Shown here in pieces: positions 1 through 19,410 of a DNA stretch of 20,002 bases. The stretch spans positions 1-20,002 of IMG/VR virus record IMGVR_UViG_3300009085_000627. One strand, 5' to 3'. Numbering within the stretch: position 1 is the stretch's first letter; every line of letters begins with the position of its first letter. Made by a program: the position numbers and the translations under genes. A model generated the notes under the pieces. It did no database searches. It saw nothing but the letters and a program-made list of their open reading frames with translations, and had not been told where the DNA came from. Source of the DNA: a virus.

Positions 1-993
1 CTAAACCAAGTCCCGCCACTGAATCCCCTCTCCCCTAGCGATGTGGCGGCAGGCACGCCGCCCGACAACCTCATCCCACGCTCCAGGCGGCAGACCGACG
101 TTGGGGCGCAGCACAGCGAGGTTCGCCCAACTGAACTCCTCGTTAGGCTCGATGTCCCTGGTGGCGATGATGCTTCTGCGGTAGTAGGCGTTCTCACCCT
201 CCCGCAGTCCGTAGGCAGGTGTGCCAAGCGCAGCCCCTACCTCTCGCACCGCCCGCACCAGCTCGGCCATTTCCGCAGGCTCCAACGAGAACTCAGCGTC
301 AGGCCCACCATCGGCACGGCGCAGGCAGAAGTGCTTCTCGATAACCTCTGCGCCAAGGGCGGTGGCGATAACCGCCGCCGTGTGTCCCAGCGTGTGATCC
401 GACAGGCCCAACTTCACAGTCGGCATCCAACGCCGCATATCCGTCAGCGTGGAGAGGCGCATGTCCTCCACCTTGGCGGGGTAAGCAGAGATGCAGTGCA
501 GTAGGGTGGGCTTGATCTCGCCCTTGCTCTGCACCACAACCTCGCGCCATGCGGCGATGATGTCGTCCTGCGTCGCCATGCCCAGGCTGATGTAGACCGG
601 CTTGCCCTTGCGTCCGATGGCACCGATGAGCTGCAACCAGTTGTTCTCGAAGGAAGCCACCTTGTAGGCGTCAACCAGAGGCTCTAGGAAGTCCACCGCC
701 TCTAGGGAGAACGGCGTGGAGATGCAGTCAAGGCCCTTGTCGTGCGCCAGGTCGAAGATGGGCTTGTGCCACTCCCAAGGCGTGTACGCCTGCTGGTAGA
801 GACTGTAGAGGGTGCGGCCCCGCCACAGCCCGTCAGCGTGGAAGGGGAAGTCTAGCGTGATGGTGTCGGGCGTGAACGTCTGGAGCTTGATGGCGTTGCA
901 GCCTGCGGCAGCGGCGAGGTCAACGAGGTCGAGGGCGCGTTCTAGGGAGCCGTTGTGGTTGGCTGATAATTCAGCGATTATGTACGGTGTCAT
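1..993 (-). CDS. pseI: Pseudaminic acid synthase (PseI, NeuB family)
   Basis: Predicted to condense 2,4-diacetamido-2,4,6-trideoxy-L-altrose with phosphoenolpyruvate to give pseudaminic acid, a nonulosonic acid, in the cytoplasm. The 330-residue protein has the NeuB TIM-barrel followed by a C-terminal SAF (antifreeze-like) domain from about residue 271. The N-terminal AELSANHNG motif (7-15), the segment LWRGRTLYSLYQQAYTPWEW and the PSE-type GGPDAEFSLEP region are typical of PseI rather than of sialic or legionaminic acid synthases. The metal-binding histidines are present in SDHT (H200) and EKHF (H221). The ATG at 993 is preceded by GGAGGG; a longer in-frame form would begin with unrelated sequence belonging to the upstream small gene. 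It is the last gene before the left edge, and its TAG stop occupies bases 1-3. The family call is firm. The exact sugar could be a pseudaminic acid variant, given the neighbouring acyl-changing enzymes. Confidence 0.93.
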   Translation of the reverse strand: MTPYIIAELSANHNGSLERALDLVDLAAAAGCNAIKLQTFTPDTITLDFPFHADGLWRGRTLYSLYQQAYTPWEWHKPIFDLAHDKGLDCISTPFSLEAVDFLEPLVDAYKVASFENNWLQLIGAIGRKGKPVYISLGMATQDDIIAAWREVVVQSKGEIKPTLLHCISAYPAKVEDMRLSTLTDMRRWMPTVKLGLSDHTLGHTAAVIATALGAEVIEKHFCLRRADGGPDAEFSLEPAEMAELVRAVREVGAALGTPAYGLREGENAYYRRSIIATRDIEPNEEFSWANLAVLRPNVGLPPGAWDEVVGRRACRHIARGEGIQWRDLV

Positions 994-1063
994 TAGCCCT
1001 CCATGCCAGCCACATGCCCACAGGCATACCGATAGAGAACGCACACAACATGCCGAGCAGCAT
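971..1063 (-). CDS. Tiny single-span membrane protein (30 aa) before pseI
   Basis: A 30-residue frame of an unrecognised family. Residues 1-20 (starting MLLGMLCAFSIGMPVGMWLA) form one hydrophobic helix, followed by the short polar tail WRANDTVHNR. The ATG at 1063 has AAGGGG four bases upstream in the context AGGGGCTAATG, nearly the same context as the pseI start (AGGGCTAATG). It begins 8 bases after the stop of the 46-residue membrane gene and overlaps the first 23 bases of pseI, which fits translational coupling. A longer reading from a GTG at 1198 is open but lacks a properly spaced ribosome site. Its role is unknown. Together with its neighbour it could help move or anchor the sugar pathway, or it could be a lysis-type small membrane protein. 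Confidence 0.5.
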   Translation of the reverse strand: MLLGMLCAFSIGMPVGMWLAWRANDTVHNR

Positions 1064-1071
1064 TAGCCCCT

Positions 1072-1212
1072 TCACCGCAGCAACAACTCCACTAACAAAG
1101 CGAATCCTATGCCCGCGGCAAATATATTCAGTTTCCAGCCCCTCTGAAATCCCAGATATAGATTGGCGCAAAACGCCAGTGTGTGGAACACCGCCCACGC
1201 CTCTCGGCTCAC
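1072..1212 (-). CDS. Tiny membrane protein (46 aa) between pseB and pseI
   Basis: An unrecognised 46-residue protein that starts MSREAWAVFHTLAFCANLYL and ends with the hydrophobic stretch IFAAGIGFALLVELLLR. Two short membrane helices, at about residues 6-22 and 28-45, are likely, with the basic turn QRGWK between them. The GTG start at 1212 overlaps the pseB TGA stop in a GTGA junction, and AGGAGG lies 8 bases upstream inside the end of pseB. The same junction style joins many genes elsewhere in the window, which supports real expression. Two tiny membrane genes in succession inside a nonulosonic acid cassette are unusual. A small hetero-oligomeric transporter or a holin-like function can be imagined, but nothing in the sequence decides. 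Confidence 0.6.
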   Translation of the reverse strand: MSREAWAVFHTLAFCANLYLGFQRGWKLNIFAAGIGFALLVELLLR

Positions 1213-2150
1213 CCCGCCAGCCTCCTTAGTTCTTCTACCGTCAGCCACTCGCTGTTACTGTCGCTGCTGTACCGGAACCCCTCCGGCACAGGGACGCCTG
1301 CCACTAGGCGGCTTGACGGGTTGATGATGTACCTGTCTCCGCAGTCAACCACGTTGCGCGACTCGCCCTCGCTCACCAGGACTTCGTGCAGCTTCTCGCC
1401 AGGACGAATCCCGACAATCACATGCTTGGCCCCTGGCGCGATGGCCTCTGCCAAGTCCGTCACTCTCATGCTTGGCACCTTCGGCACGAATATCTCCCCG
1501 CCGAACTGCATCCCTAGGCAGGACAGCACGAAGGTCACGCCTTGCTCGATGGTCAACCAGAACCGCGTCATGCGCTCATCCGTGATGGTCAGGGTGCCGA
1601 TCTTGGCCTGCTCCTTGAATAGCGGAATCACCGAACCCCTAGAACCGATCACGTTGCCGTAGCGCACCACGGAGAACCTTGGCCCCCGCGCACCGCCGTA
1701 GGCAGACGCACCGACAAACAGCTTCTCGGCGCACAGCTTGGTGGCACCGTAGAGGTTGATGGGGTTGACTGCCTTGTCCGACGAGATTGCCACCACCTGC
1801 CGCACATCGTTGTCGATTGCGGCCTCGATGACGTTCTGCGCCCCCAGCACGTTCGTCTTGGTGGCCTCGAAGGGGTTGTACTCGCAGGCAGGCACCTGCT
1901 TCAGCGCGGCGGCATGAACCACCACATCCACGCCATCGAAGGCGCGGTAGAGGCGGTCGCGTTCCCGCACATCACCGAGGAAGAAGCGCAGGCGCGAATC
2001 GGGAAACTCGCGCTGCATCTCGCCCTGCTTCAACTCGTCGCGCGACAGCACAATGATCTTCTTCGGCCCCAGCGTCAGGGCTTGGCGCACGAACTCATGC
2101 CCGAAGGTGCCGGTGCCGCCCGTCACCAGGACGGTCTGCCCGCTAAACAT
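1209..2150 (-). CDS. pseB: UDP-GlcNAc 4,6-dehydratase, PseB-like
   Basis: The predicted first step of pseudaminic acid synthesis: NADP-dependent 4,6-dehydration and 5-epimerisation of UDP-GlcNAc. The 313 residues form an extended short-chain dehydrogenase. The Rossmann motif GGTGTFG is at 11-17, SRDELKQ at 36-42, and HAAALKQVPACEYNPFEA begins at 79. The catalytic segment SSDK (D125, K126) with Y134 and K138 matches the FlaA1/PseB pattern, which uses Asp and Lys beside Tyr instead of the usual Ser. The length is slightly short of typical PseB (about 330). The ATG at 2150 overlaps the end of the GNAT gene by 8 bases, with GGGTGA six bases upstream. The soluble form without the membrane domain of CapD/WbpM argues against a large capsule dehydratase. 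Confidence is high for the family and good for PseB. Confidence 0.9.
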   Translation of the reverse strand: MFSGQTVLVTGGTGTFGHEFVRQALTLGPKKIIVLSRDELKQGEMQREFPDSRLRFFLGDVRERDRLYRAFDGVDVVVHAAALKQVPACEYNPFEATKTNVLGAQNVIEAAIDNDVRQVVAISSDKAVNPINLYGATKLCAEKLFVGASAYGGARGPRFSVVRYGNVIGSRGSVIPLFKEQAKIGTLTITDERMTRFWLTIEQGVTFVLSCLGMQFGGEIFVPKVPSMRVTDLAEAIAPGAKHVIVGIRPGEKLHEVLVSEGESRNVVDCGDRYIINPSSRLVAGVPVPEGFRYSSDSNSEWLTVEELRRLAG

Positions 2151-2685
2151 ACTTGGTCACCCACGAGTCGAAGGAGAAGTAGAGCGAGTCGTACTGCTCC
2201 CCCTCCCAATACTTGCGGTTGGGCAGCGTCGTCCAGTAGCCGCGCTTGCGCTCCACCATCTTGCGCCAGAAGTCCACGGCGGGGTTGCACTCGTAGCACT
2301 CCCCATAGACCATCAGCAGGCGCAGTTGGTTGAAGGCGACGCAGAGGATTTTGTCCAGAGCCGCCTCGCCGTAGCCTTGACGGGCAAACTCTGGCCCGAT
2401 TTGCAGGGCGACTTCGGCGGTGCCGTTCTCCCATTGGATGTTCGTCAAACCCACGACGCCGACAAACCCACTCAGGGAGTCAAACGCCACAAGGTCCAAA
2501 TCGGTGTCCACCACGGCGAAGTAGCGACTATCAGCCTTGCGGTCGCAGACAACCTTGTCATACCACTCCCGCTGCATCTCGGCAGTCAGCATATAGGGTG
2601 TGCGCCAGGGCGAGAGGTCAAGGTTGCGCCATTGATGTATCTGATAGGCCCGCCAGGGGTCCATCGGCTCCAGCCTAACGGACAC
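2143..2685 (-). CDS. GNAT N-acetyltransferase, possibly PseH-like
   Basis: A 180-residue GNAT-fold protein. The acetyl-CoA binding loop is seen in QIGPEFARQGYGEAALDKIL (about residues 96-115), preceded by the beta strand VGVVGLTNIQWENGTAEV that PseH-type and RimJ-like sugar or peptide acetyltransferases share. In the pseudaminic pathway PseH acetylates the 4-amino group of UDP-4-amino-4,6-dideoxy-AltNAc, and the position between PIG-L and pseB makes that role reasonable. I see no residue that proves the substrate. The GTG at 2685 is chosen over an internal ATG at codon 8 because GAGGTGA lies six bases upstream. It overlaps the deacetylase end by 11 bases and the pseB start by 8 bases, so the cassette is translated as a coupled unit. 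Confidence 0.78.
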   Translation of the reverse strand: MSVRLEPMDPWRAYQIHQWRNLDLSPWRTPYMLTAEMQREWYDKVVCDRKADSRYFAVVDTDLDLVAFDSLSGFVGVVGLTNIQWENGTAEVALQIGPEFARQGYGEAALDKILCVAFNQLRLLMVYGECYECNPAVDFWRKMVERKRGYWTTLPNRKYWEGEQYDSLYFSFDSWVTKYV

Positions 2686-3310
2686 AGCGAATCACCTCGA
2701 ACGCCTCGGCAAACTCATGCCCACACTGTGAACCGCGCAACGCTGCCAATACCCTAACCGCCCCTCCCGATCTCGGATGTGGAAATGCCCTCATCTCGGA
2801 CTCGTAGTGCTTCAACGCATGGAACTTGCGGAGGAAGTTATCGAACGAAATCACGGAATACATCGTCGGCTTGAATCCCGCACCCCACTCGCTGCTACTC
2901 AGCACCTCGAAGGCGTATATCTCCTTCACCAGCGCGTTCGGCAGGGGGCGGCAGGCGGTCAGCACCGCTTGATGCACAATCCTGTGGTCCTCGTTCAGAT
3001 CGCCGCCAGAATGGGTGTAGACGACGGACGGCTCATATATGCCGATGGCGGTTTCGATGTGCTGGATGATCGACAATAGGGGGATGGTGTCAAACTGCTG
3101 GTCAGGGCAATAGGCACTAACACCGGGGGATTGCACTCCCAGCAGAGCCTCGGCCTCTATCCTGGCGTGCCACAGGTTCTGACCCTCGCGGCCTGTACTG
3201 AGAGTGAAGGTGGCAATCTCATGCCCCTCGCTCACCAGCCGGTTGATGGTGCCGCCCATGCCCAGTTCGATGTCGTCAGGGTGTGCGCCAACGCAGAGTA
3301 TCTTAGCCAT
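2675..3310 (-). CDS. PIG-L family N-acetylglucosaminyl deacetylase
   Basis: A 211-residue protein of the PIG-L/LmbE fold, zinc enzymes that remove N-acetyl groups from GlcNAc-containing substrates. The AHPDDIELG motif (9-17) supplies H10 and D13, and NEDHRIVHQA (106-115) supplies H113, the usual three zinc ligands; D12 is the expected general base. The protein has no signal peptide, so it should act in the cytoplasm on nucleotide-linked or free sugars. Its ATG overlaps the upstream acyltransferase stop by 8 bases, and the ribosome site is weak, suggesting coupled translation. Placed between an LpxD-like N-acyltransferase and a GNAT, it probably takes an acetyl group off the pathway sugar so that another acyl group can be added. 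The substrate is inferred from context only. Confidence 0.88.
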   Translation of the reverse strand: MAKILCVGAHPDDIELGMGGTINRLVSEGHEIATFTLSTGREGQNLWHARIEAEALLGVQSPGVSAYCPDQQFDTIPLLSIIQHIETAIGIYEPSVVYTHSGGDLNEDHRIVHQAVLTACRPLPNALVKEIYAFEVLSSSEWGAGFKPTMYSVISFDNFLRKFHALKHYESEMRAFPHPRSGGAVRVLAALRGSQCGHEFAEAFEVIRCVR

Positions 3311-4223
3311 TCTCTGCCAGCTTCTTCAGGGCGCGGTTCATGGCGACAAACTCTTTGAGCGGCCTCGCCCTGTTCCCCGCCACCGTCTGCCCGTCAGGCA
3401 CATCCTTGACCACCACGGCACCGCTACCAATCGTCACGCCGTCGCCAATGGTGATGTGGTCGTTGATGACCGCGCCCAGCCCAATCCAGCAGTCGGACCC
3501 TATCACCGTCGAACCGCCAATGCTGGCCCCCGCCGTGATGATGGTGTTGCGCCCGATCCGGCAGTTGTGCGCGATGTGGACAAGGTTGTCCACCTTGACA
3601 TCGGCCTCTAGGACGGTAGGGTCAATCGTACCCATCGCCACTATCGAGCCTGTGCCGATATCCACGCGCGGCCCCAACTCCACCCCGCCATAGTGCGGGA
3701 TGCGGAGCGGCCTGCCGTGTTCGTCCTTCTCGAAGCCGAACCCCTGCCCGCCAATCACGGCGTTCTCGCGGATGATGCTTCCCGCGCCAATCACCGAGAA
3801 GTTGCGGATGATGGCCCCCGCCATGACGGTCACACCAGAGAACAGCACCGTGTCGCCCTCGATCATGGCCTCGTAGTCAAACTCGCAGTCGGGCGCGATG
3901 TCGGGGTCTTCGTTCGGGTACTCGACGATGTTGGACAGCACCGCCATCAGCTTCGCATAGGCATAGCGCGGCCTCTCCACCTCTGCGGTCAGCAGGTCCG
4001 GCACCAGCCCCACGTTCGCGCCGACAGGCACCAGCAGGAGCGAGTCGCGCACACCCTCCAACATCTCCGCGACGTTCGGCGTCAAGTCGTTGCAGAACAT
4101 CAGGGCGTTGTTGGCGGGGTGGTTCAGGCTTGCGGCTCGGACCAGACTCAGATCGGACCAGGGAAGTTCCATGCCCGCTAGGGCGGCAAGTTCATCAACC
4201 GTGATCTTGAATAAGGCTCTCAT
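3303..4223 (-). CDS. LpxD-like left-handed beta-helix N-acyltransferase
   Basis: A 306-residue protein with the two-part architecture of LpxD: an N-terminal nucleotide-binding domain (about 1-100, with LNHPANNALMFCND and PRYAYAKL) and a hexapeptide-repeat left-handed beta-helix (about 105-280). The segments GGQGFGFEKDEHGRPLRIP and VHIAHNCRIG correspond to conserved LpxD regions, and H219 in HIAHN aligns with the catalytic histidine. LpxD makes lipid A, but in a phage cassette beside pseB and pseI this copy more likely acylates an amino group on a UDP-sugar using acyl-CoA or acyl-ACP. The ATG at 4223 has AGGGAGGT upstream. It lies only 23 bases after the head-protein stop, so it shares the late transcript with no visible terminator between phage and sugar genes. 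Confidence 0.87.
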   Translation of the reverse strand: MRALFKITVDELAALAGMELPWSDLSLVRAASLNHPANNALMFCNDLTPNVAEMLEGVRDSLLLVPVGANVGLVPDLLTAEVERPRYAYAKLMAVLSNIVEYPNEDPDIAPDCEFDYEAMIEGDTVLFSGVTVMAGAIIRNFSVIGAGSIIRENAVIGGQGFGFEKDEHGRPLRIPHYGGVELGPRVDIGTGSIVAMGTIDPTVLEADVKVDNLVHIAHNCRIGRNTIITAGASIGGSTVIGSDCWIGLGAVINDHITIGDGVTIGSGAVVVKDVPDGQTVAGNRARPLKEFVAMNRALKKLAENG

Positions 4224-4246: not shown

Positions 4247-5068
4247 CTAGACAAGCCAGACGATCTCACAGCGACAGTTTGTGTCTTCTTCCAGCACCCC
4301 GAACCCGCCAGGGTACAATGTCTTGGCACCGCTGGGCGACTCGAAATACTCGTCAATCTCCCGAATCTGCCCCTCCATGCCAACGTGCGTATCGCGCACT
4401 CGTTCGTCTGCCATCGTTACCCACACCTTGCGAAGCTCGACTCCCGCCGCCTTCGCCTCTAGCCCCGCCTGCCACCGCGCCTCGTTCAGCAACCTGTGCG
4501 CTTCGGTGTTCACCCACCGCGTAGCCCGCACCGCATCCAGCGAGAGCTGCTTCCGCACATCGGCCATCATCTGCGAGTAGGTGGCACCGCGCATCAGGCC
4601 CCGCGTCACAATCTGCCGCACCCTTGCCGCCAAGTCGTCGCGGTGCATAAATATGCGCTCTAGGATGCTCATGCCCGTGGTGGGCCTCGCCACGGCTTCG
4701 TCCACCAGCAACCCGCGCAACACCGCATAGCCAATGGCGATGCCCGCCGCTTTCTCCAGGGCTGCGCCGGTGTCGAAGTACATCTCGCGGTAGGCTTCTG
4801 CCAGTTCGCGCTCGGTCAGCCGCGCCGACTTACCGCCCAGCTTACGCAGTTCTTCACGAATCTCGGCCTCTAGCTTGGGCAGGCGGTTGTACTTCCGCAT
4901 TTCCTCGTAGGTGAGTTTGCCGTCACGCGCGTACCGCTCGTAGGTGCCAGCCAGGATCATCCGCAGGGCAGCGTAGAGGGCAGCGTAGAGCGCGACTATC
5001 TGCCGCCGTGTGTCCCGCAACCGGGCGTTGTATGCGCGGTCGGCCTGCTTGTATGCGACTTCTGCCAT
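4247..5068 (-). CDS. Phage head morphogenesis protein (SPP1 gp7 / Mu F type)
   Basis: A 273-residue minor head protein. The C-terminal MuF signature is clear: KVWVTMADERVRDTHVGMEG, then PSGAKTLYPGGFG and the terminal EDTNCRCEIVW. The rest is helical and charged. In SPP1-like phages this protein binds the portal, enters the procapsid in a few copies and affects early DNA ejection. The ATG at 5068 is preferred over a GTG at 5077 because GGGGGTG lies about six bases before it. It follows the portal gene by 20 bases, the usual order. No effector domain is fused to it, unlike long MuF toxins. It is the last recognisable virion gene before the sugar cassette. Confidence 0.92.
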   Translation of the reverse strand: MAEVAYKQADRAYNARLRDTRRQIVALYAALYAALRMILAGTYERYARDGKLTYEEMRKYNRLPKLEAEIREELRKLGGKSARLTERELAEAYREMYFDTGAALEKAAGIAIGYAVLRGLLVDEAVARPTTGMSILERIFMHRDDLAARVRQIVTRGLMRGATYSQMMADVRKQLSLDAVRATRWVNTEAHRLLNEARWQAGLEAKAAGVELRKVWVTMADERVRDTHVGMEGQIREIDEYFESPSGAKTLYPGGFGVLEEDTNCRCEIVWLV

Positions 5069-13728: not shown

Positions 13729-13922
13729 TTAGCTTCGACCCCCTTGCGGGCGGCAATGATGGCGGTGACTGGCGTTGTACCGCAGAACGGACACGGCATC
13801 GGCAACGTGGCTTCGGCGGGCCACGCCGGTCCATAATCACCAACTCCGACCTTGGCTGCGCCGAGAAACTGTTGCCCACACACCACACAGGTCATCACAA
13901 CTGTTCTGTCCTCGAACTCCAT
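13725..13922 (-). CDS. Zinc-ribbon protein (65 aa)
   Basis: A 65-residue protein with two CxxC knuckles, TCVVCGQQF and PCPFCGTTP, spaced about 32 residues apart, the pattern of a zinc ribbon. The ATG at 13922 is chosen over one at 13946 because GGAGGGG lies six bases before it and it overlaps the preceding TGA as TGATG. The C-terminus AIIAARKGVEAK echoes the next gene. A nucleic-acid binding role is likely in general terms. Confidence 0.68.
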   Translation of the reverse strand: MEFEDRTVVMTCVVCGQQFLGAAKVGVGDYGPAWPAEATLPMPCPFCGTTPVTAIIAARKGVEAK

Positions 13923-14329
13923 CACTCGCCCCTCCTTGCCTGCCATTCCCTCTCGTAGCCGAGCAACTCAGCGTGTCGCTCCTTCGTCAGCACATGCAGC
14001 TCCGGCACATGCGGCTCCTTCAGAATCAGCAACGCCGCCTTGCCGTTGTGCTTGGCAATCTCGACGATCTGCAACCAGGCGTTCATCAGCCACTTCGGGA
14101 ATGATTCTCTTGACTTGCACTCCCCGCAGTAGTGCAGGCTGCGGAGGTCGTACCCTGCCTGCGTCGTGTTCGCCACTCGCCCCACCGAGGACACCCAGCC
14201 TGCGTTGCGGACGGCAGGATCAGGGCCGTCGTGATCCATCAGCCACCTGCCGCCTTCGCGTTCGACGTGCTTCCAGACGGAGTTGCGGCGACGCGACTTG
14301 GGCGATTCAGGCTTCGGAACGCTAGGCAT
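13922..14329 (-). CDS. PD-(D/E)XK nuclease-like protein, possible resolvase
   Basis: A 135-residue protein. It shows the nuclease pattern of an early glutamate in WKHVEREGGRWL (E23/E25), then AGYDLRSLHYCGECKSR with D61 and E70-x-K72, and a following helix (WLMNAWLQIVEIAKHNGKAA). This layout resembles archaeal-type Holliday junction resolvases and small phage endonucleases, acting on branched or modified DNA during replication and packaging. The ATG at 14329 overlaps the upstream stop at 14322; longer in-frame sequence lies inside the transglycosylase gene and is not used. The specific activity is inferred from motif spacing only. Confidence 0.6.
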   Translation of the reverse strand: MPSVPKPESPKSRRRNSVWKHVEREGGRWLMDHDGPDPAVRNAGWVSSVGRVANTTQAGYDLRSLHYCGECKSRESFPKWLMNAWLQIVEIAKHNGKAALLILKEPHVPELHVLTKERHAELLGYEREWQARRGE

Positions 14330-15038
14330 GTTGTTGCCCATCCACGACAAACCCCAATGGCAGCGTATGCTTCGTTTGTTGGCGAGTGTTGGCGGCTTGC
14401 CACAGTAAAGCGCGGATATTGTGTCGCAACATCTCATCCCGCGTAAAGAATAGGTTCTTGTCTCGCGCCCCAACCTCGCCCTTCCTACCGAGCAAGCGAC
14501 CATATCGAGCAGCGACCGTCCAGGTGGTTGAATCAACAGAATACAGTCCCATCAAGCGTGGTTTGAGTGTGCCAACCGCAAAACCGTGAAACCGCCTTAT
14601 GGGATTGTCCGTTGTGGTTCTCTCTACCCACGACTCAAACAAGCCTTGTGGACGCTGGCTAGACAAACTGGAATTGCCGAGGCCGACGTACTCATAATCG
14701 GCAAGACGGTCCAACCATTCGGTGGGTTCGCCAAAGTGATATACGGGCAACGGCGAGAACCCCTTATCCTCAAGTTGTGTTTGGTTCTTCGCGGTCTGCG
14801 TTGGATCATCGCAAACGTCAAGATTGACATAGGCGTCCACGTGAGGGCCGTAGTCTCGTAGACAGGCCGCATACTCCGCTACGGTAATCGTGATCCCGCG
14901 AGTAAATGCGGAGTAGGCCCCGCTGTCGAGCATCACCCCAAAACCCATCGCCAAGGCGTTCTCCAGGGTCTGGCGAAAGTAGTCGCTGCCGTAAGCACAT
15001 AGAATGTGGGTGGCCCCTTCCTCACGCAGCAAGGTCAA
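14322..15038 (-). CDS. DpdA/TGT-like transglycosylase
   Basis: A 238-residue protein related to the tRNA-guanine transglycosylase superfamily, which swaps guanine for a 7-deazaguanine base; DpdA members do so in DNA. The landmarks are LDSGAYSAF (37-45, with D38 at the general-base position), VNLD (71-74), PVYHFGE (98-104), YVGLGN (117-122), RFHGFAVG (149-156) and SVDSTTW (167-173, the expected nucleophile Asp). The C-terminal zinc site of tRNA enzymes is not visible, which favours the shorter phage DpdA-like group. The start is a TTG (15038, or 15032, which is better placed behind GGGGGA), overlapping the queT-like end by 17 bases. Coupling to that transporter supports a salvage route. Whether the target is DNA or tRNA is not decided by the sequence. 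Confidence 0.72.
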   Translation of the reverse strand: MTLLREEGATHILCAYGSDYFRQTLENALAMGFGVMLDSGAYSAFTRGITITVAEYAACLRDYGPHVDAYVNLDVCDDPTQTAKNQTQLEDKGFSPLPVYHFGEPTEWLDRLADYEYVGLGNSSLSSQRPQGLFESWVERTTTDNPIRRFHGFAVGTLKPRLMGLYSVDSTTWTVAARYGRLLGRKGEVGARDKNLFFTRDEMLRHNIRALLWQAANTRQQTKHTLPLGFVVDGQQHA

Positions 15039-15498
15039 TTCCCCCGGCCTGGGTGCTGCGAAGTAGATAATCAGTGACCTTCACCCCCACCAGCATCAGC
15101 GGCAACTCTGCTGCGAACACCGATGCCGCCGAGACTAGCCACGGCAACCCCACAACCCAATGCAGCATCGCGCCCACAGAAACACCCACCCATGCGGCGT
15201 AGACGGTTACGGCAAGCCACGGCATTGCACGGAGCCGATAAGCCAACTCGCCGCCCAAGTAACAGGCTAGAGGCATCAGCAAGAGTTCCCAAACGCCGAT
15301 TTGCGGACTAGCAAGGTTTGCCAGAAACAGTCCTGCGGTCAAGCCTGCGATGTACTTGCGCCCCCTCAACGCGAGAGGCTTTAGTAGTTCTGATGCCCGA
15401 AACTGCAAGATACCAAACGCCCACGGTGCTATCGCCCATGTGACCACCGCATACAATGCAGCAACCAATGCGGCCCGCGTCCAGTCGCGCCTACTCAC
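15022..15498 (-). CDS. queT: QueT-family transporter, 7-deazapurine precursor uptake
   Basis: A 158-residue membrane protein with about five hydrophobic helices. The QueT hallmarks are visible near the N-terminus: ALVAALYAVVTW, then FGILQFRASELL (28-39) and GLFLANLASPQ (56-66), then LACYLGGELAYRLRAMPW. QueT proteins are substrate-binding (S) components of ECF transporters importing queuosine precursors such as preQ0, preQ1 or queuine, and would use the host's energising module. The GTG at 15498, seven bases after GGGGAGGT, is chosen; an upstream open stretch in the same frame is not membrane-like. It overlaps the 34-residue membrane gene by 8 bases and the DpdA-like gene by 17 bases. No preQ1 riboswitch is visible upstream. 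Confidence 0.82.
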   Translation of the reverse strand: MSRRDWTRAALVAALYAVVTWAIAPWAFGILQFRASELLKPLALRGRKYIAGLTAGLFLANLASPQIGVWELLLMPLACYLGGELAYRLRAMPWLAVTVYAAWVGVSVGAMLHWVVGLPWLVSAASVFAAELPLMLVGVKVTDYLLRSTQAGGIDLAA

Positions 15499-15595
15499 GC
15501 TTTCCACCTCCCCACCACTCATGCACCCACAGCCCTGTCGCGACAGACAGGGACAGGACGACGTAGAGGGACAGGAACCACGGCCATTCAGGCAT
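15491..15595 (-). CDS. Tiny membrane protein (34 aa) coupled to queT
   Basis: A 34-residue frame starting MPEWPWFLSLYVVLSLSVAT with the basic-aromatic tail GLWVHEWWGGGKRE. One membrane helix is likely at residues 6-22. The ATG overlaps the preceding regulator stop by 8 bases, and its own TAG overlaps the queT-like GTG, so translation would be coupled on both sides. The tail codons also supply the GGGGAGGT ribosome site of queT. An accessory subunit of the transporter is a reasonable guess. Confidence 0.62.
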   Translation of the reverse strand: MPEWPWFLSLYVVLSLSVATGLWVHEWWGGGKRE

Positions 15596-16031
15596 TTATC
15601 CAGACTCCCCTCTTGGCAAGCTGCGTCGTCGTCACCTTGATCGCCTTCCTCGCTAACTCGCTGTGCTTCCGCACGTTGCGCCAGTCCTGCGGCACCTCGC
15701 CCCGGTAGGCCATCAGCCCCATCTCGTACACCAGCCAGCCCACTCCTGCCAGCGGCGCACCGCCTTGCCTCTCTCCATGTAGCGTTGGAGGCTCCATTTT
15801 CTTCTTCCTGCAACCATCGCCCCTGGGACGCCCCCGCTTCACACCAGCCGTAGCGTTTACCCCTGGCTCCAACTCCCACCCGTAGACATCGTGCAGCAGG
15901 GCGACTTGCCACTCCGTCAGCCGCTTCTTGCCGCGCTCGATGGCAGAGTAGTGGGCGCGGTCAACGGAGAGGGCGTTAGCCACCTGTTGTTGCGTCAGGT
16001 GCTTCTCAGCGCGATAGGCTTGGAGGTTCAT
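15588..16031 (-). CDS. Cro/C1-type regulator with AT-hook
   Basis: A 147-residue protein. The N-terminal XRE helix-turn-helix is clear: YRAEKHLTQQQVANALSVDR with AHYSAIERGKKRLTEWQVAL (about 6-45). It is followed by KRGRPRGDG (about 65-73), an AT-hook core, and an unrecognised C-terminal domain ending in helices (SELARKAIKVTTTQLAKRG). The ATG overlaps the upstream stop in an ATGA junction. A repressor or early-gene regulator is likely. It lies in the middle of the operon and is not divergently arranged, so it is not an obvious lysogeny switch. Confidence 0.78.
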   Translation of the reverse strand: MNLQAYRAEKHLTQQQVANALSVDRAHYSAIERGKKRLTEWQVALLHDVYGWELEPGVNATAGVKRGRPRGDGCRKKKMEPPTLHGERQGGAPLAGVGWLVYEMGLMAYRGEVPQDWRNVRKHSELARKAIKVTTTQLAKRGVWINA

Positions 16032-16991: not shown

Positions 16992-17920
16992 TTCGCACCC
17001 TCCCTCTCGCGTCTAATCTGCTCAATGCGTTCCTCCATCGTCCACTCCCGCACGACAACGGGCGGCGGGGCGGTGACATGCGATTGCGAGTACGTTGCCC
17101 CGTAGGTGCCCTCCAGAACCCGCGTTACTACGTCCTCGCTCTTGGTTGCCCAGTCAAGAGTAGCTTTCCATCCCCTGTCGTTCTCGCCACGGCAGAAGCG
17201 ATAGTCCGCAATCCGCGCGAAGTACGCCCGCCACCACTCGGCGGTGCGGCCCGCCTCGCGGAGTCTGGCGCGGACTTGATCTAGGCGTTTAGGGGCGAGT
17301 TTCTGGCACTTGGGGAGGGTGTCGCCACAAACCTCGTTCCACAGTTCCAGAACCTCGTTTGGCTTGATGACACCACTAGGGGAGGCGGGGGCAACGTCAG
17401 TTGCCGAAGGGGTTTGACTTATGTTTTCTACGGTATTCGGAGTACGGTATACGGTATACGGTATTCGAGTCTCAATCGAATGCCAATCGAATGCCATTCG
17501 CATTGCATTCGCAAGGCATTCGCATTCCAATGTTGCCGCATCTAGCAGGTCTTTTAGCAGGTGTGTGAGGGGTAGGCCCCGCAGAACCTTGATTGCGCCC
17601 TCCACCTGCTTGCCCGTGCTTGGCGAGTCGTGTTTGAGTCCCTTGACGATTAGAATGACTTGCGCTTTCTCATCGTAGCGAATGAAGTCTGCACTCGAAA
17701 GCGCATCGAATGCCACTCGAAGCCGCTTCGATTGCCATTGAAGGTCGTTCTCAATGTAACAGAGAGGGCAATAGAACAACCCGACCATGTTGCGGTGTGG
17801 CGATGTCATCAGGTAGATCGCGAGGAACCGCATGTCCTCCGTCCACTCGTTGCGGATATCCGTGTCCTGCCAGAAGCGCGGCGTGATGCGGTAATACCGC
17901 CCGGTGGGCTTGTCGTTCAC
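16988..17920 (-). CDS. Phage replication initiator (DnaD/replisome-organiser-like)
   Basis: A 310-residue protein with an N-terminal winged-helix region typical of phage replisome organisers (RYYRITPRFWQDTDIRNEWT, then EDMRFLAIYLMTSPHRNMVG and AFDALSSADFIRYDEKAQVI), a low-complexity linker (about 165-190) and a C-terminal domain with VLELWNEVCGDTLPKCQKL and FCRGENDRGWKATLDWATK. It should bind the origin and recruit the host helicase. Two 11-base iteron arrays and 7-base repeats lie inside the coding sequence, as in the lambda O gene, which strongly supports an initiator role. The start is a GTG overlapping the preceding TGA. Confidence 0.82.
   Translation of the reverse strand: MNDKPTGRYYRITPRFWQDTDIRNEWTEDMRFLAIYLMTSPHRNMVGLFYCPLCYIENDLQWQSKRLRVAFDALSSADFIRYDEKAQVILIVKGLKHDSPSTGKQVEGAIKVLRGLPLTHLLKDLLDAATLECECLANAMRMAFDWHSIETRIPYTVYRTPNTVENISQTPSATDVAPASPSGVIKPNEVLELWNEVCGDTLPKCQKLAPKRLDQVRARLREAGRTAEWWRAYFARIADYRFCRGENDRGWKATLDWATKSEDVVTRVLEGTYGATYSQSHVTAPPPVVVREWTMEERIEQIRREREGAK
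17430..17464. repeat. ACGGTAT 7-base direct repeats beside the iterons
   Basis: ACGGTAT begins at 17430, 17444, 17451 and 17458, the last three in tandem. They adjoin the 11-base iteron array and the AT-richer stretch 17412-17436, so they may be part of the unwinding region or a second protein-binding site of the origin. Confidence 0.6.
17463..17528. repeat. Iteron array 1, probable replication origin
   Basis: Six units with an exact 11-base period: ATTCGAGTCTC (17463), AATCGAATGCC (17474 and 17485, identical), ATTCGCATTGC (17496), ATTCGCAAGGC (17507), ATTCGCATTCC (17518). One helical turn per unit places all sites on the same DNA face. The array lies in the linker-coding part of the initiator gene, as in lambda. 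Confidence 0.72.
17693..17736. repeat. Iteron array 2 in the initiator gene
   Basis: Four units with an 11-base period share the TCGAA core: ACTCGAAAGCG (17693), CATCGAATGCC (17704), ACTCGAAGCCG (17715), CTTCGATTGCC (17726). The unit at 17704 repeats TCGAATGCC of array 1, suggesting one protein binds both arrays, which lie 164 bases apart. Confidence 0.6.
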
Positions 17921-18465
17921 TTTGCCGACCTGTCCAGGTCAGCCTGCAGTTGTGTCCACACTTCCCCCGCACACCTGTACGGATCGTGCCATATCTCGGA
18001 CCCTGTGAAATGAAGTACCTTGTGGCCCGCTTGCGTCAAGAGACGATCTCTGCGCTTGTCGTGCGCCGCCTGTGTCTTCGTCTTCTCGTGAAACTCGTGC
18101 CCGTCACACTCGACCAGCGTTGACACCAATGTCTCAGAGTGGTCGCCGAGGCGAACGAAAGTCACCTGAAAGTCCGCACGGTAATCACCGCCGTCGGTGT
18201 GTACCGCGAACTGCGGCGTCACCTCTACCCACGCACAGCCGGGAGTGTTGCGAACTGTGAATATGCGTTGACTCGCCAGAAGCGCCGCCATTAAGACCTG
18301 TTCGATGGGGGACCTGGCCCCGTCCCCGTCTGGCAACAACTCTTCTAGGCATCGGACCCACGCCGCAACCGTGATCTTCTGTGCTCTAGGGTCGAGAGCA
18401 AGTAACAAATCAACCCACTCCATCTGATCTTCGGTGAAGATGTTATCTAGCGTCTTGTTTGCCAT
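17917..18465 (-). CDS. PD-(D/E)XK endonuclease-like protein (DUF559/Vsr-type)
   Basis: A 182-residue protein. The C-terminal half has the DUF559/Vsr-like nuclease layout: SPIEQVLMAAL (E55), GDYRADFQVTF (D98), LVECDGHEFHEKT (E119, D121), then DKRRDRLLTQAGHKVLHFTG and EIW. The N-terminal 50 residues are not recognised. Vsr enzymes nick at T:G mismatches made by deamination of 5-methylcytosine; DUF559 members occur beside methyltransferases and in mobile elements. Here the gene begins one base inside the end of a C5 methyltransferase gene (TAATG), with AGGAGGA upstream. It may therefore repair, protect or restrict DNA in partnership with the methylase. The zinc-binding residues of true Vsr are not evident, so restriction or generic nuclease activity is equally possible. 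Confidence 0.75.
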   Translation of the reverse strand: MANKTLDNIFTEDQMEWVDLLLALDPRAQKITVAAWVRCLEELLPDGDGARSPIEQVLMAALLASQRIFTVRNTPGCAWVEVTPQFAVHTDGGDYRADFQVTFVRLGDHSETLVSTLVECDGHEFHEKTKTQAAHDKRRDRLLTQAGHKVLHFTGSEIWHDPYRCAGEVWTQLQADLDRSAK

Positions 18466-19184
18466 TACTTCGTTCCTCCTGCCGCCATGATCGCCCGACC
18501 TATCTGCTCCACAACTTGCGGCACTACTGCGTTACCAAGGGCTCTAAGTCGGTCCACATAGTGGGGAATCCCATTACGGCCTCCGCAAAGCAGGGGTTGA
18601 GGTATATCGGGTCGGCAGCGCAAGTCCTCAATGCTTCGGACATCTTGGCACCACGAAAACTCGTTGAACCTCGGAACCGGTCCCTGCCAGAACCCCTCCA
18701 TTCGCTGGCCACGACGGTAGGCAACGATAAAGACGCGCCGACGCAGGTGGGGCGCACCGACCGCCTTTGCCGATAACACCTGCCACTCCGCATCAAACCC
18801 GATGTCGGCCAGGTCTCGGAGAACGCTGCCCATTCCGAGAGAAAGCAACCCTGGCGTGTTCTCCACGAGGACGTAGCGAGGTCTAACCACGCGAAGTATT
18901 CTTGCGAACTCGGGCCACAACCATCGCTCGTCTGATTGTCCTGCCCGCTGGCCAGCGAGACTAACTGGCTGGCAAGGGAAACCTCCCGCAACGATGTCAA
19001 CTGCCCCAACCTCGTCACCTCTAACCGTCTTGATGTCGCCGTAGCGCGGCACGTCGGGCCAATGCTTGGCGAGTACCTTCTGGCAGAACGGGTCGATCTC
19101 GATTTGCCATGCGATCTCCATTCCTGCCCGTTGCAGGCCGAGGTCGATGCCGCCGATGCCGGAGAACAGACTGCCGACCCTCAT
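18465..19184 (-). CDS. DNA (cytosine-5-)-methyltransferase
   Basis: A 239-residue C5 methyltransferase with the motifs in order: I, SLFSGIGGIDLGL (5-17); IV, GGFPCQPVSLAGQ (67-79, catalytic C71); VI, VLVENTPGL (106-114); VIII, RRRVFIVA (148-155); X, DRLRALGNAVVPQV (211-224). The target-recognition region between VIII and X is short, as in phage orphan methylases. It would mark cytosines in phage DNA to evade host restriction or tune host genes. The ATG at 19184 overlaps the 42-residue membrane gene in an ATGA junction; longer in-frame sequence belongs to upstream genes in other frames. A second open frame on the same strand (18524-19018) overlaps most of the gene and is described separately. 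Confidence 0.93.
   Translation of the reverse strand: MRVGSLFSGIGGIDLGLQRAGMEIAWQIEIDPFCQKVLAKHWPDVPRYGDIKTVRGDEVGAVDIVAGGFPCQPVSLAGQRAGQSDERWLWPEFARILRVVRPRYVLVENTPGLLSLGMGSVLRDLADIGFDAEWQVLSAKAVGAPHLRRRVFIVAYRRGQRMEGFWQGPVPRFNEFSWCQDVRSIEDLRCRPDIPQPLLCGGRNGIPHYVDRLRALGNAVVPQVVEQIGRAIMAAGGTK
18524..19018 (-). CDS. Alternative-frame ORF inside the methyltransferase gene
   Basis: A 164-codon frame, shifted relative to the methylase on the same strand, whose translation is not random-looking. It contains SSQEYFAWLDLATSSWRTRQ, FSETWPTSGLMRSGRCYRQ, ASEWRGSGRDRF and the end LNPCFAEAVMGFPTMWTDLE followed by PLVTQ. These match, from memory, a phage protein family with SETWPRSGMxRNG and LNPxFVEWLMGFPxGWTxLEP signatures found near cytosine methylases. 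The start would be GTG without a clear ribosome site. It could be expressed by reinitiation or frameshifting, or be only a conserved shadow of the methylase codons. Confidence 0.35.
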   Translation of the reverse strand: MTRLGQLTSLREVSLASQLVSLASGQDNQTSDGCGPSSQEYFAWLDLATSSWRTRQGCFLSEWAAFSETWPTSGLMRSGRCYRQRRSVRPTCVGASLSLPTVVASEWRGSGRDRFRGSTSFRGAKMSEALRTCAADPIYLNPCFAEAVMGFPTMWTDLEPLVTQ

Positions 19185-19309
19185 GCCGCACCCCACAGCC
19201 ACGCATTGGGCCATATCCTGCTTGCCAGCCATGCGGCGGCGATCCCCGCGCACACGACGACGAAGAGCTGCATGATGAAGCAGGCGGTGTCCCAGTCGGC
19301 GTCGGTCAC
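19181..19309 (-). CDS. Tiny membrane protein (42 aa) before the methyltransferase
   Basis: A 42-residue frame starting MTDADWDTACFIMQLFVVVC, continuing AGIAAAWLASRIW and ending in PNAWLWGAA. One helix at about residues 9-32 spans the membrane. The GTG at 19309 overlaps the preceding TGA (GTGA), and its TGA overlaps the methylase ATG (ATGA). Exact 4-base junctions on both sides are strong evidence for a real gene. Function unknown. Confidence 0.65.
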   Translation of the reverse strand: MTDADWDTACFIMQLFVVVCAGIAAAWLASRIWPNAWLWGAA

Positions 19310-19410
19310 CGCACACACCTCGCCCACAGCACAACCAGGGCGACACTCGCACTCAGCGCAACGCCGAGGCCGATGCCCGTCGCGAGTGTCAGCCAGTCTG
19401 GCTCTTTCAT
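19306..19410 (-). CDS. Tiny membrane protein (34 aa)
   Basis: A 34-residue frame starting MKEPDWLTLATGIGLGVALS, continuing ASVALVVLWARCVR. The acidic start, one hydrophobic helix (about 8-28) and Arg-rich end indicate a single-span protein with its basic end inside the cell. The ATG overlaps the upstream TGA (ATGA), and the TGA overlaps the next GTG (GTGA). It forms a chain of small membrane genes with its neighbours. Confidence 0.65.
   Translation of the reverse strand: MKEPDWLTLATGIGLGVALSASVALVVLWARCVR

Follow-up and report, generated by a model that had tools for sequence, protein, structure and literature searches.

A phage QueT-DpdA gene pair as a likely salvage cassette for 7-deazaguanine DNA modification

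We wanted to understand how a phage that encodes a DpdA-like enzyme, with no preQ0 biosynthesis gene in sight, could obtain the base that such an enzyme would place in DNA. The question is raised by a run of overlapping genes in the window, that is, the whole stretch of viral DNA analysed here, a fragment of 20,002 bases. We consider it likely that the QueT-DpdA pair in this run forms a salvage cassette by which the phage modifies its DNA with a 7-deazaguanine, working via QueT, the ECF motor of the host and DpdA. The genes of the run all lie on the minus strand and are listed below in the order of reading.

15588 to 16031, minus strand: HTH_31/HTH_3 regulator-like gene, upstream and overlapping (PF13560, 35.7 bits)
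15491 to 15595, minus strand: 34-aa open reading frame with a single transmembrane segment (MPEWPWFLSLYVVLSLSVATGLWVHEWWGGGKRE)
15022 to 15498, minus strand: queT, ECF S component for queuosine precursors, 158 aa (PF06177)
14322 to 15074, minus strand: dpdA-like gene for a predicted DNA-guanine transglycosylase of 250 aa, start probably at CTG (phrog_887, 7ui4 profile match, AlphaFold2 model)
13922 to 14341, minus strand: 139-aa gene, downstream and overlapping, with a possibly nuclease-like product (CGECKSRESFPKWL; weak RusA-like PHROG match, E 0.019)

The initial annotation had described a QueT-family S component, a 34-residue membrane protein and a transglycosylase encoded with overlapping ends. 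The genes and the overlaps stood, with 8 nt shared by the 34-aa frame and queT and 53 nt shared by queT and dpdA, and what had been left unmentioned was the minus strand. The 34-aa frame starts before the HTH gene has ended, and its stop overlaps the start of queT; its product has one predicted transmembrane segment at residues 4-25 (hydropathy 1.88), and no match to it was found in Pfam or PHROG. queT begins with a GTG codon (15498) with GGGGAGGTGG upstream and, at the other end of the run, the start of the 139-aa gene (14341) falls within the dpdA gene. This cassette is not a chance assembly, since QueT and DpdA have strong curated and PHROG matches, and since the closest relative, the viral contig L099, keeps the gene order. 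The surroundings are those of a phage, with a terminase, an SPP1-type portal, a Mu-F protein and a DnaD-like/replication initiation protein; the terminase has its kin among Streptomyces phages (about 46%), which is too distant to name the host. Two other groups of genes were observed on the minus strand of the window. Behind the portal and Mu-F genes, positions 1-4223 encode NeuB, a PseB-like Polysacc_synt_2 protein, a GNAT protein, a PIG-L deacetylase and a hexapeptide acyltransferase, which looks like phage-encoded synthesis of nonulosonic acid or of a surface sugar. Positions 17917-19352 encode a C5-cytosine DNA methyltransferase (162 bits against PF00145) and, after it, a DUF559/MTES_1575 nuclease-like protein; these two may be a further pair of this phage that protects DNA or is restriction-like.

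QueT matched PF06177 at 86.7 bits, with a cut-off of 33.7, over positions 2-138 of the 141 of the profile, and thus belongs to the family to which it had been assigned. It contains several hydrophobic segments, the first of which carries the AxxxA motif of S components (AALVA/ALVAA, residues 9-14), and its best viral relative is that of L099 (43% identity). QueT is only an S component and also needs the EcfA/A'/T module of the host, a requirement that the initial annotation had left out. Members of the QueT/QrtT group in C. difficile import preQ1, or preQ1 together with queuine and queuosine (PMC11130926), and by analogy with these kin the window QueT may import preQ1 or queuine. No preQ1 riboswitch was detected by an Rfam search in the window or in the QueT loci, which speaks against the salvage cassette.

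Then, the origin of the precursor was considered. It had been stated that no queuosine or preQ0 biosynthesis gene is present in the window, and this was confirmed, as neither QueC (PF06508) nor FolE (PF01227) gave a match in the 20,002-base record and tblastn with phage QueC, QueD, QueE and FolE was empty as well. The further claim that the phage salvages the precursor instead of making it was upheld in part: it gains comparative support from ten viral QueT contigs devoid of FolE and QueC, and it is limited by the window record being a 20-kb fragment, so that biosynthesis genes may lie outside. A phage making its own preQ0 with genes beyond the fragment, with QueT merely topping up the pool, is the alternative that survives best, and we regard it as unlikely. 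It draws on the fragmentary record and on two precedents, namely Streptococcus phage Dp-1, which combines FolE, QueC, QueD and QueE with QueT-DpdA, and phage EC151 and the Seuratviruses, which pair a YhhQ transporter with a full pathway (PMC8310023). Against it, pathway genes normally adjoin dpdA: at least two of FolE, QueC, QueD and QueE were found within 8 kb in 69 of the 80 nearest IMG/VR DpdA loci, and at least one in 74, QueT being absent from the records of all 80. Moreover, no biosynthesis pathway was detected in the flanks of the ten QueT contigs (L099-L108), and QueC and FolE were missing from all ten whole records, six of which span 26-80 kb (QueD and QueE were searched in the flanks).

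The QueT-DpdA pair is not unprecedented, since it was annotated earlier in Dp-1 (NC_015274), where QueT (gp6; 131.7 bits against PF06177) lies directly upstream of, and overlaps, a phrog_887 DpdA (gp7), as in the window. QueT was named as a transporter of Dp-1 in the Seurat genome paper (PMC4342423), and dPreQ1 is present in Dp-1 DNA, where it amounts to about 1.7% of G (PMC6884629). Dp-1 differs from the window by its four biosynthesis genes and a QueF-like protein, and its DpdA is only 23% identical to that of the window and sits on another branch of the DpdA tree. The salvage-only form of the pair looks new. The DpdA-only ("group 3") phages also have DpdA without preQ0 genes, and uptake of an exogenous precursor was offered by Hutinet et al. 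as one option for them (PMC6884629). In contrast to the window, the transporters reported in that study are YhhQ homologues in some phages, which did not correlate with any group, and the QueT pair was not described there; some DpdA-only phages, such as Orion, have no modification (PMC6884629), which weighs against the salvage reading. Finally, the YhhQ/QPTR preQ0 transporters of Seuratvirus, EC151 and HCTV-1 are likewise phage-borne queuosine-precursor transporters in a deazaguanine cluster (PMC8310023, PMC8651126), but they belong to an unrelated family (PF02592) and normally accompany complete biosynthesis.

We looked at whether the second gene of the pair encodes a DNA enzyme or a tRNA enzyme. 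The window DpdA matched phrog_887, the PHROG common to the DpdAs of 9g, CAjan and Dp-1, at 116.7 bits, and tblastn with its sequence reached 223 phage records with identities up to about 37%. It is about 30-35% identical to DpdAs with measured activity, about 35% to phage DpdAs and 40% to the DpdA of L099. The motifs DSGAYSAF, HGFAVG and VDSTTW reported initially were found at residues 50, 163 and 179, and D50, S51, G52, A53, D86, H113, H163 and D181 were invariant in an alignment of 43 DpdA sequences. 9g DpdA has a conserved His196 that is missing from DpdA2 (PMC6884629), and H113 or H163 of the window DpdA would be its counterpart. A comparison of DpdA and tRNA TGT by HMM, proposed as a check, favoured the former: the family profile had one credible match among PDB sequences, the DNA-guanine transglycosylase 7ui4 (E 3e-5), and tRNA TGTs were absent up to E 10. 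The D/D/H/H/D active-site residues of the window DpdA pair with identical residues in 7ui4, whereas the latter is 436 aa long against 250 aa and the profile similarity is weak (26.6 bits). The AlphaFold2 model (pLDDT 87.7, pTM 0.86) was placed by Foldseek in the TGT-superfamily TIM barrel (TGT matches with E 1e-7 and TMq 0.59-0.65), and the nearest viral models include phage DpdAs. The top PDB matches of the model are tRNA TGTs, because the fold alone cannot separate DNA enzymes from tRNA enzymes. The protein is about 50-60 C-terminal residues shorter than 9g-type DpdA, and those of phiSM and L099 are equally short. Membership in the TGT superfamily is thus certain, and the sequence comparisons give good support to DpdA rather than tRNA TGT; the enzyme would act on DNA.

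That it is instead a small phage TGT working on tRNA, with imported preQ1 or queuine raising Q in host or phage tRNA, seems to us quite improbable. The modelled TGT-superfamily fold is consistent with this possibility, as is the usual role of QueT in bacteria, which is tRNA Q salvage (PMC11130926). However, no match to the Pfam TGT domain was obtained in the window DpdA even at E<=1, and the CxCxxC...H zinc site is absent, the protein having no CxC and only three cysteines (26, 71 and 88). The profile points to the DNA enzyme 7ui4 and to no tRNA TGT, the nearest characterised kin (9g, CAjan and Dp-1) modify DNA, and the window contains no tRNA genes.

The start of this enzyme deserves a comment. 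The open reading frame listing places it at TTG 15038, and the frame stays open upstream of this codon, with no ATG, GTG or TTG ahead of it. The DpdAs of L099 and Dp-1 align by their N termini with this upstream stretch (LIIYFAAPRPGELTLL), the aligned parts in this comparison reading LIIYFAAP, MITYFATP and FNLYFAG. Since the frame is open and aligns in this way, the likely start of DpdA is a CTG (or ATT) codon within queT, at position 15074. Gene finders limited to ATG, GTG and TTG would remove 12 residues from the protein.

To see whether the pair recurs, IMG/VR was scanned twice with QueT alignments, without conditioning on DpdA. Single-sequence scans with the window DpdA and QueT had returned no relatives and alignments were required; the scans rely on short degenerate patterns, so divergent members are missed. 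Ten viral QueT contigs were found (L099-L108), and in all ten a DpdA (seven contigs) or a DUF6610 protein (three contigs) is encoded within 1.2 kb of QueT. The partner is a phrog_887 DpdA in L099, L101, L103, L104, L105 and L106 and a DpdA detected by HMM in L108, and it is DUF6610 in L100 and L102 (PF20314) and in L107 (HMM). The two genes abut or overlap in most contigs, and a methyltransferase-like gene lies between them in L106 and L108. As a control, DpdA was absent from all seven QueT contigs of bacterial appearance. These are the INPHARED "Listeria phage" and "Bacteriophage sp." records (L015, L016, L141-L145), which look like bacterial chromosome contigs; they were rejected as phage loci for this reason and kept as controls only. 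The enzymes linked to QueT are dispersed over the DpdA tree, the window with L099 (99/96), L103/L105/L106/L108 together (100/99) and Dp-1 elsewhere, and supported branches force at least two changes, the deep long branches being uncertain. The QueT tree unites the window, L099, L100, L102 and L107 in a single supported clade (100/98), within which the window and L099 are paired with DpdA and the three others with DUF6610. Independently of this, the prophage-like contig L105 contains a salivarius-1 sRNA at 4440-4496 (RF03030, 72.8 bits), and its host may be Streptococcus salivarius-like.

The DUF6610 genes (PF20314) beside QueT are the following.

L100, 549 to 1334: DUF6610 beside QueT
L102, 6734 to 7918: DUF6610 beside QueT
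L107, 1211 to 2491: DUF6610 beside QueT

DUF6610 is fused to ParB in L102, L107, L138 and L139. Directly downstream of ParB-DUF6610, QueT is found in L102 and L107 and a YhhQ-like protein in L137, L138 and L139, L138 and L139 being near-copies. It is difficult to see why QueT and YhhQ should share one slot if the enzyme did not use a Q precursor brought in from outside, and DUF6610 may be an unrecognised transglycosylase. Its AlphaFold2 model, built from 6 sequences, had a pLDDT of 71.3, the best TGT match ranked 24th (E 0.058), and the profile-profile comparison of DUF6610 with DpdA (hhalign) was negative. The least probable alternative, that QueT is a passenger with a different small molecule as its cargo and no connection to DpdA, can appeal to the varied substrates of ECF S components, but it must contend with the close and usually overlapping DpdA or DUF6610 partner in ten out of ten contigs and with the presence of YhhQ, an unrelated Q-precursor transporter, in the same slot beside DUF6610, and we give it hardly any credence.

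Some DpdA loci that lack preQ0 genes also have a YhhQ/PF02592-like transporter adjoining DpdA, one of the records being an archaeal MAG.

L018, 3244 to 3726: YhhQ-like transporter beside DpdA
L065, 9127 to 9666: YhhQ-like transporter beside DpdA
L131, 6017 to 6721: YhhQ-like transporter beside DpdA

YhhQ occurred in 5 of the 21 DpdA loci without biosynthesis against 3 of 86 (p = 0.007), a modest and post hoc difference whose significance ignores relatedness, and it is present alongside full pathways too.

From the family membership, the fold, the conserved active site, the overlapping genes and the recurrence without FolE or QueC observed for the salvage cassette, we infer the following route. 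QueT would join the EcfA-EcfA'-EcfT motor of the host and import a queuosine precursor, most likely preQ1 (or queuine). The DpdA-like enzyme would attack the glycosidic bond of guanine in phage DNA with D181 as the nucleophile, D50, D86, H113 and H163 completing the predicted active site, and put the imported base in place of guanine. The product would be dPreQ1 or a similar base, which is expected to impede the nucleases of the host. The choice of preQ1 agrees with the dPreQ1 of Dp-1, which is not proof that preQ1 is the imported base, since Dp-1 has a QueF-like protein.

Beyond the window, the loci suggest a recurrent, mobile and salvage-only phage route, in which QueT or YhhQ stands next to DpdA, or to DUF6610 as an unrecognised transglycosylase, without biosynthesis. 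Since preQ1 or queuine is the presumed cargo of QueT, DpdA of these phages would then insert that base directly into DNA. We put this broader proposal forward tentatively, at somewhat short of an even chance. Hutinet et al. could not tell insertion of preQ1 by DpdA from reduction of dPreQ0 in DNA (PMC6884629). In a phage with QueT and DpdA only and no QueF, any dPreQ1 would result from direct insertion, provided that the host also lacks QueF, and such phages make this question testable. In addition, the exchange of QueT and YhhQ beside DUF6610 provides a hypothesis of function for a domain of unknown function. If the proposal is true, phages could build a protected genome from a micronutrient of extracellular origin, and the protection of their DNA would depend on the environment and on the shared ECF motor of the host.
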